A stretch of 64,000 nt of DNA from Geodermatophilus dictyosporus (GTDB lineage: Bacteria > Actinomycetota > Actinomycetes > Mycobacteriales > Geodermatophilaceae): the NCBI RefSeq assembly GCF_900115505.1, contig NZ_FOWQ01000006.1, forward strand, positions 1-64,000. Direction: 5' to 3'. This document shows positions 32,161-52,012 of this stretch, in pieces. Position numbers and translations under genes: made by a program. Within the stretch, counting starts at the first letter, position 1. Every line of letters starts with the position of its first letter. The notes beneath the pieces were generated by a model. It was not told the origin of the DNA. It did not search any database and worked only from the letters and a program-made list of their open reading frames with translations.

Positions 32161-32288
32161 AACGGTCCCCGTGCCCCCCTGGAAGGACCTCCCTGCCCCC
32201 CACCGCTCGCACGCTCGCGGCGGGACCCTGCAGGGAGGCCGCTGACCGCTCGGGGCGGGACCCTGCACGGGGGCCGTTCCAGTACGGC
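32161..32288. repeat. Nested-hairpin intergenic repeat: one copy inserted in another
   Basis: The outer element has a split stem: 32161-32174 pairs with 32265-32278 over 14 positions with one G-T wobble. Inside it lies a second complete copy of the same repeat family, with stem CCTCCCTGC (32188-32196) and GCAGGGAGG (32230-32238) around the conserved core CCCCACCGCTCGCACGCTCG. The tail GTTCCAGTACG follows. It lies between the convergent HTH and aldo-keto reductase genes and probably ends both transcripts. See the other copies at 37341, 37405, 38466, 44673, 49851 and 51294. Confidence 0.85.
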
Positions 32289-33182
32289 CTACAAGTCGGT
32301 GTCGGGCTCGCCGGTACCGCCGATGCGGTCGAGCTCCTGCAGCTCCACCGGACCGAGCACCCGCGCCGCGGCCTGCAGGTTCTCCTCCAGGTGGGTCACC
32401 GACGAGGTGCCCGGGATGAGCAGCAGGTTCGGTGAGCGGGCCAGCAGCCAGGCCAGCGCCACCTGCATCGGCGTCGTCTCCAGCCGCCGGGCCACGGTCT
32501 CCAGCGCCGCCGACTGCAGCGGCGTGAAGCCGCCGAGCGGGAAGTACGGCACGTAGGCGATGCCCTCGCGGGCCAGCGCGTCGACCATCGCGTCGTCGTC
32601 GCGGTGCACGAGGTTGTAGTGGTTCTGCACGCACACCACCGGGGCGATCGACCGCGCCTCGGCGAACTGCTGCGTCGTCACGTTGGAGACGCCGAGGTGG
32701 CGGATGAGCCCCTGCTGCTGCAGCTCGGCGAGGGTCTCGAACGGCTCGGCGAGCGAGCGCTCCACCGGTGCGTCGAAGCCGGGCATCCGCAGGTTGACCA
32801 CGTCGAGCACGTCGAGACCGAGGTGGTCGAGGTTGTCCTGCACCGCGGAGCGCAGCTCGTCGGGGGTGAGCGCCTCGGGCCACCCGCCGTCGGGCGTCCG
32901 CCGGGCGCCGACCTTGGTGACGATGGTCAGCTGCTCCGGATAGGGGTGCAGCGCCTCGCGGATCACCTCGTTGGTCACGTGCGGGCCGTAGTAGTCGCTG
33001 GTGTCGAGGTGGTCTACGCCCAGCTCGACGGCCCGGCGCAGCACGGCGAGGGCGGCCCCGCGGTCGGCCGGCGGGCCCATGATGTCGGGCCCGGACAGCC
33101 GCATCGCCCCGTAGCCGATCCGGTTGACCGTGCGGTCCCCGAGCGTGAACTGTCCTGACCGTTCGGCGGTCGTCGTCGTCAT
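32289..33182 (-). CDS. Aldo/keto reductase
   Basis: This 297-residue TIM-barrel NAD(P)H oxidoreductase has the catalytic Asp-Tyr in LDTSDYYG (near 65) and Lys in IVTKVGARR (near 93). It also has the cofactor region LIRHLGVSNVT and, near the end, LIPGTSSVTHLEENL. The usual catalytic His of the LxLH motif is replaced: VVNLRMPG stands in its place, as in some divergent subgroups. The enzyme is probably active but with altered mechanism or substrate range. The start is ATG 33182. Confidence 0.9.
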   Translation of the reverse strand: MTTTTAERSGQFTLGDRTVNRIGYGAMRLSGPDIMGPPADRGAALAVLRRAVELGVDHLDTSDYYGPHVTNEVIREALHPYPEQLTIVTKVGARRTPDGGWPEALTPDELRSAVQDNLDHLGLDVLDVVNLRMPGFDAPVERSLAEPFETLAELQQQGLIRHLGVSNVTTQQFAEARSIAPVVCVQNHYNLVHRDDDAMVDALAREGIAYVPYFPLGGFTPLQSAALETVARRLETTPMQVALAWLLARSPNLLLIPGTSSVTHLEENLQAAARVLGPVELQELDRIGGTGEPDTDL

Positions 33183-33219
33183 GCCCGGCTCCTACCCGCG
33201 CCCGCCGCTCCACGCGCGC

Positions 33220-50298: not shown

Positions 50299-50342
50299 CG
50301 CCGTCCCGCCGTCCCCTCCCTCGCACTCCCGGAAGAGCACCC

Positions 50343-51293
50343 ATGGCCCGCTTCGCCTCCCTCGTCGACTCCCTCGGCGGCACGCCGCTGGTCGGGCTGC
50401 CCTCGCTGTCGCCGACCCCCGACGTGCGGCTGTGGGCCAAGCTCGAGGACCACAACCCCACCGGGTCCATCAAGGACCGTGCCGCCATCTCGATGATCGA
50501 GGCGGCGGAGAAGGAGGGGACGCTCTCACCCGGGGACACCATCCTGGAGCCGACCAGCGGCAACACCGGCATCTCACTGGCGATGGTCGCCCGGCAGCGG
50601 GGCTACCGGCTGATCTGCGTCATGCCGGAGAACACCTCCGTCGAGCGCCGCCAGCTCCTGCAGATGTACGGCGCGCAGATCATCAGCTCGCCGGCGGCCG
50701 GGGGCTCGAACCAGGCCGTGGCGATGGCCAAGGAGCTCGCCGCTGAGCACGACGACTGGGTGATGCTCTACCAGTACGGCAACCCGGCCAACGCCGAGGC
50801 GCACTACACCGGCACCGGCCCGGAGATCCTCGCCGACCTGCCCTCGATCACCCACTTCGTCGCGGGCCTGGGCACCACCGGCACGCTCATGGGCTGCTCG
50901 CGCTACTTCCGCGAGCACAAGCCCGACGTCCAGGTGATCGCCGCCGAGCCGCGCTACGGCGAGCTGGTCTACGGCCTGCGCAACATCGACGAGGGCTTCA
51001 TCCCCGAGCTCTACGACGCCTCGCTGCTGGACTCGCGCTTCTCCGTGGGCCCCGAGGACGCCATCCACCGCACCCGGCAGCTGGTCGAGCGCGAGGGCAT
51101 CTTCGCCGGCATCTCGACCGGCGCGATCCTGCACGCGGCGCTCGGCATCGCCGACAGGGAGGTCGCGGCGGGGCGCCGGGCCGACATCGTGTTCATCGTC
51201 TGCGACGGCGGCTGGAAGTACCTGTCCACCGGCGCCTACGCCGGCACGCTCGACGAGGCCACCGCGGCCCTCGAGGGCCAGCTCTGGGCGTGA
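50343..51293 (+). CDS. cysM: Cysteine synthase CysM (CysO-dependent type)
   Basis: This 316-residue PLP enzyme has the Schiff-base Lys44 in [10 protein letters not shown], the PLP-binding [10 protein letters not shown] (near 80), and [11 protein letters not shown] (near 178) as the phosphate-binding loop. In mycobacteria this type uses O-phosphoserine and the CysO thiocarboxylate, giving CysO-Cys. The serB gene 5 kb upstream would make or consume the substrate. Its stop overlaps the GTG of the next frame. The C-terminus [13 protein letters not shown] agrees with the subfamily. Confidence 0.95.
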
Positions 51294-52012
51294 GGGAGGA
51301 CCCTGCTGCTCCCCACCGCTCGCAGGCTCGCGGCGGGCCCCTGCAGCAGGGCCGTCCCCGTGACCTCATCCTCCCGGCGCGCGGGCTGCTGTTCGACAAC
51401 GACGGCGTGCTCGTCGACTCCGACGCCGCGGTGACGACGTCCTGGTCACGCTGGGCGCTCGAGCAGGACCTCGACCCTGCCGGGGTCATGGCCGTGGTGC
51501 ACGGGCGGCGGTCGGCCGACACGGTCGCCGACCTCGTGCCCGGGGAGCGGCGGGTCGCAGCGACCGCGCTCATCGACCGCTACGAGCTCGAGGACGCGCA
51601 GACCGTGCCCGCCGTCGCCGGCGCCGCCGACCTGCTGGCCTCCCTCCCGGCCGCGGTGTGGGCCGTGGTCACCTCCGGCACCCCGGCCCTGGCGACCGCC
51701 CGGCTGACCGCCGCCGGCCTCCCGCTGCCGGAGACGATGGTGACCGGTCCCGACGTGCGCGCGGGCAAGCCGGACCCCGAGTGCTACCGCCTCGGCGCGC
51801 GGGCCCTCGGCCTGCGGCCGGAGGACACCGTGGTGCTCGAGGACAGCCCCGCCGGGGTCGCCTCGGGGCGGGCGGCCGGGGCCCGGGTCCTCGGGATCGG
51901 CGAGCGGGCCCTCGGGTGCGGTGCCGACGTCGTCGTCCGGGACCTCACCGGACTGCGCTGGGCCGACGGGCTCCTGCTGGTGCCCGCGGCGGCTGTGCTG
52001 CAGCCCACCTGA
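51290..52012 (+). CDS. HAD-superfamily sugar-phosphatase-like protein
   Basis: This 240-residue HAD hydrolase has [13 protein letters not shown] (motif I; Asp nucleophile near 36), [13 protein letters not shown] (motif II), [17 protein letters not shown] (Lys of motif III) and [12 protein letters not shown] (motif IV). It belongs to the beta-phosphoglucomutase/DOG phosphatase-like group. The only in-frame start before motif I is the GTG at 51290, which overlaps the cysM stop; the first 23 or so codons then read through the repeat. Without it, a start at CTG or a lost native start would be needed. Confidence 0.85.
51294..51356. repeat. Nested-hairpin repeat between cysM and the HAD gene
   Basis: The outer stem CCCTGCTGC (51301-51309) pairs with GCAGCAGGG (51343-51351) around ACCGCTCGCAGGCTCGCGGC. 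It lies directly behind the cysM stop and in the N-terminal coding stretch of the next gene, which has no other in-frame start. See that gene for the consequence. Confidence 0.85.

Follow-up and report, generated by a model that had tools for sequence, protein, structure and literature searches.

What is the hairpin-forming repeat that recurs directly behind stop codons at the start of a Geodermatophilus dictyosporus contig, and what keeps its two arms complementary? The window is the whole stretch of DNA analysed here, namely the 64 kb at the start of contig C14 (NZ_FOWQ01000006.1); the genome (G000) has 4.69 Mb in 16 contigs. The original prediction described a nested hairpin at seven positions of the window and proposed a terminator or a mobile unit resembling repetitive extragenic palindromes (REP-like). 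The element is indeed found at all seven positions, and a covariance model (R1), built from 23 copies themselves found by core or tail, has 99 matches at E <= 0.05 in the 1,658,471 bases of the genome that were searched whole, six of them in the window. We assign a probability of roughly 0.7 to the interpretation as a non-coding miniature repeat of REP-like type, characteristic of the Geodermatophilaceae, which sits flush with stop codons and is sometimes nested in the loop of another copy. The terminator half of the proposal is not supported (see below).

The element is a nested palindrome of 56-62 nt. Its outer arms are GGACC-n7 and n7-GGCC, its inner arms CCC-n-CCnC and GnGG-n-GGG, with TCGCANGCTCG as loop and nCCCT as one-sided loop. 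The aligned consensus reads GAAGGACC-n7-CCCCC-ACCnCTCGCAnGCTCGnGGCGGG-nCCCT-n7'-GGCC, followed in some copies by a 16-nt tail (GTTCCAGCACGTCACC). Such a shared tail had been noted in several window copies, which is correct, but it is a minority feature overall: among the 211 of 232 copies with a scorable 3' end, 44 agree with the 16-nt tail at 10 or more bases and 167 at 1-9 bases. The ends (GAAGGACC and GAACGGCC) are terminal inverted repeats, as in miniature inverted-repeat transposable elements, and the consensus of the 5' foot is GAAG (within GAAGGACC). The core is sequence-specific; when up to two mismatches are allowed, it has 64 matches on both strands versus 2 for a reversed control. 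The arms are highly variable, with 48 distinct 9-nt outer arms among the 99 copies of G. dictyosporus and only two pairs of copies with identical 54-nt bodies.

The predicted placement right after stop codons holds genome-wide. Gene ends were called by a codon-usage script, which misses short genes. The nearest upstream gene is on the same strand for 85 of the 99 copies, and two of these 85 lie inside a called gene; with only 2/99 such cases, this is a mostly extragenic, dispersed short palindrome. A same-strand stop codon is found 0-9 nt before GGACC for 68/99 copies, and for 91 of 133 copies from loci of named species, while this applies to 3.3% of random intergenic anchors (10,691 of 325,162). 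Hence, copies are not random relative to gene ends. Native hairpins are rarely so near; a start within 5 nt of the stop is seen in only 5/141. Within 11 nt, a stop is found for 160 of the 232 copies, at offsets 0 (11 copies), 1 (19), 2 (18), 3 (4), 4 (82), 5 (17), 6 (1), 7 (6), 9 (1) and 11 (1). Of the 82 copies at offset 4, 79 have TGA as their stop, with N-GAA next in 37. At offset 1, TGA is followed by A (TGAAGG) in 13/19 and, at offset 2, TAG is followed by AA (TAGAAGG) in 11/18; thus, the stop codon of some copies shares bases with the GAAGG end of the element. At offset 0, the stop is TAA (6/11) or TGA (5/11). An offset of 1 mod 3 applies to 107/160 gene-end copies of alignments A5 and A7, so that the element has a preferred reading frame, while offset 3 is rare (4).

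For 39 of the 99 copies, the downstream neighbour is convergent. In 17 cases, its stop does not lie beyond the end of the model match, and in 23 it is at most 10 nt away; the distance is identical (-6) in 8, with TCA within or just past the tail position, as judged by eye. In the part of the genome examined, 68 of 1570 gene ends (about 4%) have an element within 12 nt. A few copies without a called stop upstream (L291:2901, L078:17870, L294:6705, L343:4611) are found, by eye, between apparent divergent -10 boxes (TAGGCT/TAGGGT-like).

The taxonomic range is narrow. In G. dictyosporus itself, R1 has at least 148 matches, a floor because only 150 candidates were scored; with this number of candidates, the spread appears uneven by eye, with 42 copies on C6 (758 kb) versus 12 on C10 (759 kb). 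A survey of 61 genomes, in which about 79 candidates were scored per genome so that per-genome counts saturate, gave matches in 34 of 37 Geodermatophilaceae (9 of 12 genera, none in g5, g8 and g10) and in 0 of 24 genomes from other families of the order. An exact-core scan of named genomes gave at least 80 loci, and those listed are all from Geodermatophilaceae (Geodermatophilus, Blastococcus, Modestobacter, Trujillonella, Klenkia, Goekera, or unclassified). Class-wide searches scored 14-16 candidates per genome and could miss weak or rare copies. Among 296 genomes, R1 matched the genome under study and G358, a member of another family, with 6 matches. When the training set was extended with three palindromes of G358 (model R2), matches among 394 genomes came from the genome under study, one family relative, G358 and G083, which belongs to the genus of G358. 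The palindromes of G358 and G083 share the inner core of the element and have other outer arms. A few palindromes at L392, L393, L394 and L397 (two genomes from one genus of another family of the class) have the same inner core plus GGGnCCC, and their outer arms differ.

Presence of the element at a given gene end changes between relatives (occupancy was read by eye). Behind ctaD, 9 of 29 readable orthologues (of 30) carry it, one of them degenerate, and one more has a shrunken form. The site behind a cysM-like gene is occupied in 9/30, again with one degenerate case, and that behind a mec-like gene in 15/30 genomes from several genera. G000 and G017 were compared over C14, where 119 called genes have a usable G017 orthologue. 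A pattern finder for orthologous sites returned 21 rows with many false positives and missed ctaD. The 12 sites counted here were chosen by eye: two have a full element in both genomes, two a full element facing a remnant, five an element in G000 only and three in G017 only. At C14:206.8 kb, the flanks are conserved and the hairpin is of a different type in the two genomes, which amounts to a wholesale swap.

The element also occurs in the apical loop of another copy. In the window, a compound is found directly 3' of the TGA at 32157-32159 (32160..32279, + strand). Its outer arms at 32160-32174 and 32265-32279 (GAACGGTCCCCGTGC and GCACGGGGGCCGTTC) are 15-mers with one G-T pair, and they enclose a second element (32182..32241, + strand) with outer arm CTCCCTGC and its reverse complement. 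Further cases are C11:225744, L292, L283, L280 and the mec site of G073. A composite finder returned 13 rows, of which 5 are clear, one (L280:6142) is doubtful and 7 were discarded as chance arms. In the window, C11, L292 and L283 cases, the outer copy lacks, by eye, about 10 nt of the 5' inner arm plus the loop; similar upstream remnants are found at L354, L289, L293 and L309. A tandem amplification is present at L353:1272-1404 in Geodermatophilus sp. LHW52908, with three core matches spaced 52 nt.

Does the element terminate transcription of the gene that it follows? Only 0.5% of 211 copies have four or more T among the 8 nt that follow the hairpin, and a terminator scan of 32100-51500 flagged no copy. 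Among 40 ends that carry the element and have 40 nt or more remaining, 13 are followed by a further strong hairpin, versus 141 of 620 ends that lack the element (convergent ends: 4/7 versus 71/189; other ends: 9/33 versus 70/431); a further hairpin is thus no less frequent where the element is present. Two genes of the window have a separate native terminator-like hairpin of their own (both + strand). That of the M23 gene (37478..37511) is kept in relatives without the element, and that of ctaD (44753..44788) lies downstream of the element; by eye, such a hairpin (CGCCCCG or close) is found 3' of ctaD in about 17 of 29 orthologues, 6 with and 11 without the element. A role as the main terminator of the gene is not supported because a U-tract is missing, orthologous ends may be occupied or empty, and a separate hairpin can be kept with or without the element.

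The arms clearly covary. In the alignments, which were fitted to R1 and thus lean towards structure, 94.6% of the stem cells of the 99 copies are paired, compared to 80.3% when shuffled and 46-52% when slid, and both sides have changed in 223 cells (61 when shuffled). The values for the 133 named-species copies, which were fetched via the core and thus have an inner-stem bias, are 93.4% paired (82.0% shuffled, 52-61% slid) and 250 cells changed on both sides (70 shuffled). In both sets, stem pairs take the top seven places in the covariation ranking after average-product correction. Thus, the predicted nested hairpin with compensatory outer arms is borne out. The predicted step from compensatory change to a selected structure holds only in part. 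Selection on the sense RNA predicts more G-U intermediates than A-C mismatches, as A-C breaks the sense hairpin and equals G-U on the other strand. The tally for both sets is 64 G-U, 133 A-C, 111 other mismatches and 3680 Watson-Crick pairs. When six column pairs with recurrent mismatches are removed (A5: 33-52, 17-67, 19-65; A7: 34-62, 19-79, 23-77), 32 G-U and 61 A-C remain. Over both sets together, there is no G-U excess on the sense strand, in the full or the reduced count. This is a hint rather than a proof because stem cells are not independent of one another. As G-U is not favoured over A-C on the sense strand, the covariation need not reflect RNA selection. The count hints that rewriting of one arm from the other at the DNA level, or conversion between copies, may explain the pairing equally well or better.

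Some covariation signals concern neither stem nor near-stem pairs (57-62 and 26-62 in A5, 67-72 and 29-72 in A7). They track one CTC/GAG/CTC subfamily: in all 16 copies with a CTC/GAG inner stem, the one-sided loop likewise has CTC for CCC (GGGnCCC to GAGnCTC). This third-strand covariation (columns 26, 57 and 62 of A5; 29, 67 and 72 of A7) possibly represents just one subfamily or else a selected dyad. A competing 3' hairpin (GGnCCC-TGnnnn-GGGnCC), which would make the element a switch, was considered and receives no support from the covariation ranking.

Among the alternatives, a lineage-specific structured RNA at mRNA 3' ends fares best. The element would be a terminator without U-tract or a stability element, selected gene by gene, with stems that compensate. 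The strong covariation is what such an RNA should have, as are the orientation with the gene and the tight spacing to the stop; also, at the orthologues of two element sites (C14:124044 and C14:204745), G017 has another hairpin. Nevertheless, we consider this unlikely. The element serves only the small fraction of gene ends given above and lacks a T-run, separate terminator-like hairpins exist at ctaD, at the M23 gene and in the 13/40 cases, presence varies between congeners, A-C exceeds G-U, and the element nests in itself.

A classical REP, moved by a REP-associated tyrosine transposase (RAYT, a Y1 tyrosine transposase), has the same habits, being a palindrome with many copies that adjoins stops at gene ends (available part of PMC3733652). 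However, a search for the Y1_Tnp domain (PF01797, RAYT-type) gave no match in any of 38 Geodermatophilaceae genomes, that of G. dictyosporus among them (33 have a completeness of 90% or more); of 14 control genomes, 5 were positive. Also, there is no conserved GTAG at the hairpin foot, where the consensus is GAAG. This alternative is largely refuted; the mover may be another enzyme, or it may be gone.

Even less probable is a recombination site akin to integron attC. These sites follow a gene, are oriented, and have variable arms with a conserved fold, all of which is matched here. In the compared region, however, orthologous genes are in place with or without the element and no cassette-like gain or loss was seen, so that genes do not travel with it; also, copies are dispersed and not in arrays. 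Chance palindromes in GC-rich (75%) DNA are refuted by the sequence-specific core, the 99 model matches, the repeated tail and the family-restricted range, even though the folds of individual copies surpass those of shuffled sequences by just a moderate margin (z -0.5 to -2.9, six stretches of the window).

For the REP-like repeat, we envisage the following scenario. It may have spread, in the past or up to now, as a hairpin-forming single-stranded DNA unit by means of an enzyme other than a Y1/RAYT transposase. Its arms would stay complementary mainly by copying of one arm onto the other, either because the palindrome is corrected or because copies undergo gene conversion with one another. 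In the transcript, a hairpin a few nt after the stop would most likely act on the terminating ribosome and on the mRNA 3' end, with slower termination and 3' protection as putative effects. It is tempting to go further and to speculate on a mobile palindrome that places itself flush on authentic stops and sometimes shares stop bases (T|GAAGG, TA|GAAGG), that spreads without Y1, and whose outer stem is rewritten in both arms with the fold kept, so that DNA hairpin copying would produce RNA-like covariation. We regard this full package as tentative, and rather doubtful as a whole.

Several observations weigh against the REP-like interpretation or parts of it. No mobilising enzyme was found in the search, which covered Y1_Tnp. 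Comparison of filled and empty orthologous sites revealed no clear target-site duplication by eye. With two identical-body pairs and 48 distinct outer arms, there is no sign that copies multiplied recently; the family may therefore be an old one whose copies merely decay or convert. At the mec-like site, the same arm types turn up in different genera (GTCC in g1 and g2; CCTCCTGC in g7, g9, g11 and g12; within g1, G004 and G007 have other types); therefore, some copies may be old, and the 15/30 occupancy with recurring arm types could mean a function there. The effect on translation is proposed by analogy with Escherichia coli REPs. Copies without a called stop within 12 nt have stop triplets in 26/72 cases, with 10.5 expected. 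This may be due to missed short genes, which several of these copies probably follow, or to a motif preference; simple targeting of the trinucleotide TGA was also considered and is possible. The lean of the R1-fitted alignments has been mentioned; even so, outer-arm pairing is plain by eye.

Besides the compound, the window contains the following copies, all on the + strand, each outer arm being accompanied by its reverse complement. The element at 37341..37399 (outer arm CCCCGCTGC) is directly 3' of the TAG of the Peptidase_M23 gene (36340-37338). It is followed by a partial tandem copy plus tail (GCTCCGGTACGTCACC) at 37400..37470. This copy, predicted at 37405 as a separate unit behind a stop, carries the element but borrows the end of the 37341 copy as its 5' arm and has no stop of its own upstream. 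The element at 38466..38536 (CTCCGC), with tail GTTCCAGTACGTC, is directly 3' of the TGA of a cation-efflux gene (37548-38465), and that at 44676..44751 (CCCCTCGC), also tailed, is 3' of the TAA of the COX1/ctaD gene (42939-44672). The element at 49853..49908 (CCCCGTCC) is 3' of the TGA of the Prok-JAB (mec-like) gene (49377-49850). The last one, at 51295..51366, has a decayed tail and an outer arm (CCCTGCTGC) at 51297; it is 3' of the TGA of the PALP (cysM-like) gene (50343-51293). When only the window is searched, six copies score 55.7-79.3 bits, while 37432 (within the 37405 copy) and 32254 (second half of the compound) score 18.5 and 16.2 bits; in the whole-genome search, 37403-37471 scores 58.6 bits. 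Between the mec-like and the ThiS-like gene, GGAAT-N18-GTT is found at 49922-49947, which we take to resemble a SigR/SigH thiol-stress promoter. By eye, most of the 30 relatives compared at this site also have a GGAAT 3' of the stop of the mec-like gene.

These data extend REP-like biology to a well-sampled actinobacterial family. As the type of enzyme that spreads REPs was not found in this family, it is a clean case for studying how such repeats move. They also call for caution, since strong arm covariation need not mean a selected RNA and the G-U versus A-C count hints at the opposite here. If hairpins that abut stops slow termination, the 4% of gene ends concerned would carry a built-in control that evolution can switch.

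How does the repeat compare with known systems? It is not a described family as far as could be seen. Rfam gives no match at gathering score in the window (one irrelevant miRNA match is below threshold, E 0.18), and no description was recognised in the open PMC literature, subscription journals being outside the search. Among actinobacterial dispersed repeats, mycobacterial interspersed repetitive units (MIRU) also occur at TGA sites; as generally described, they differ in being longer and coding-like and in lacking covarying stems. The available parts of PMC5378121, PMC9686282 and PMC3035280 do not mention such a repeat.

REPs, REPINs and RAYTs provide the closest parallel (PMC3733652, available part). 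They are short dispersed palindromes with many copies near the 3' ends of open reading frames (ORFs). Where REPs are located between convergent ORFs, the majority are less than 20 bp from both ORF ends in two species rich in REPs; GTAG termini often provide a TAG stop, and REPs inserted within palindromes are known in other bacteria. However, REPs have 20-40 bp, while we find a nested double hairpin of 56-62 nt without GTAG foot and no Y1 in the 38 genomes of the family. The main text of PMC3733652 never uses the word Actinobacteria. CGTC-tagged REPs likewise have no known dedicated transposase, and the tail found here contains CGTC (GTTCCAGCACGTCACC). Theirs is a single stem of 8-9 bp, almost always with complementary AT residues first, and mostly a CCA tail (same source), while stems are nested and GC-based here, and only the tailed subset (44/211) resembles CACGTCACC. 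REPs of E. coli also form an mRNA hairpin directly after the stop and, near stops, affect translation (available part of PMC12306157, citing an earlier study for the effect); sequence and host are different, and 446 of 4,072 are within 15 nt of a stop, compared to 68/99 within 9 nt here. Thus, the Geodermatophilaceae repeat belongs neither to the GTAG class, as it lacks GTAG and no Y1_Tnp was found, nor to the CGTC class, as its stem is different. Dispersed palindromes without GTAG or CGTC tag are, however, named for Mycobacterium tuberculosis, itself an actinobacterium, and Deinococcus radiodurans (PMC3733652, by mention only in the available part). Since REP-like families without conserved ends have already been named elsewhere, the general kind to which this repeat belongs is known.

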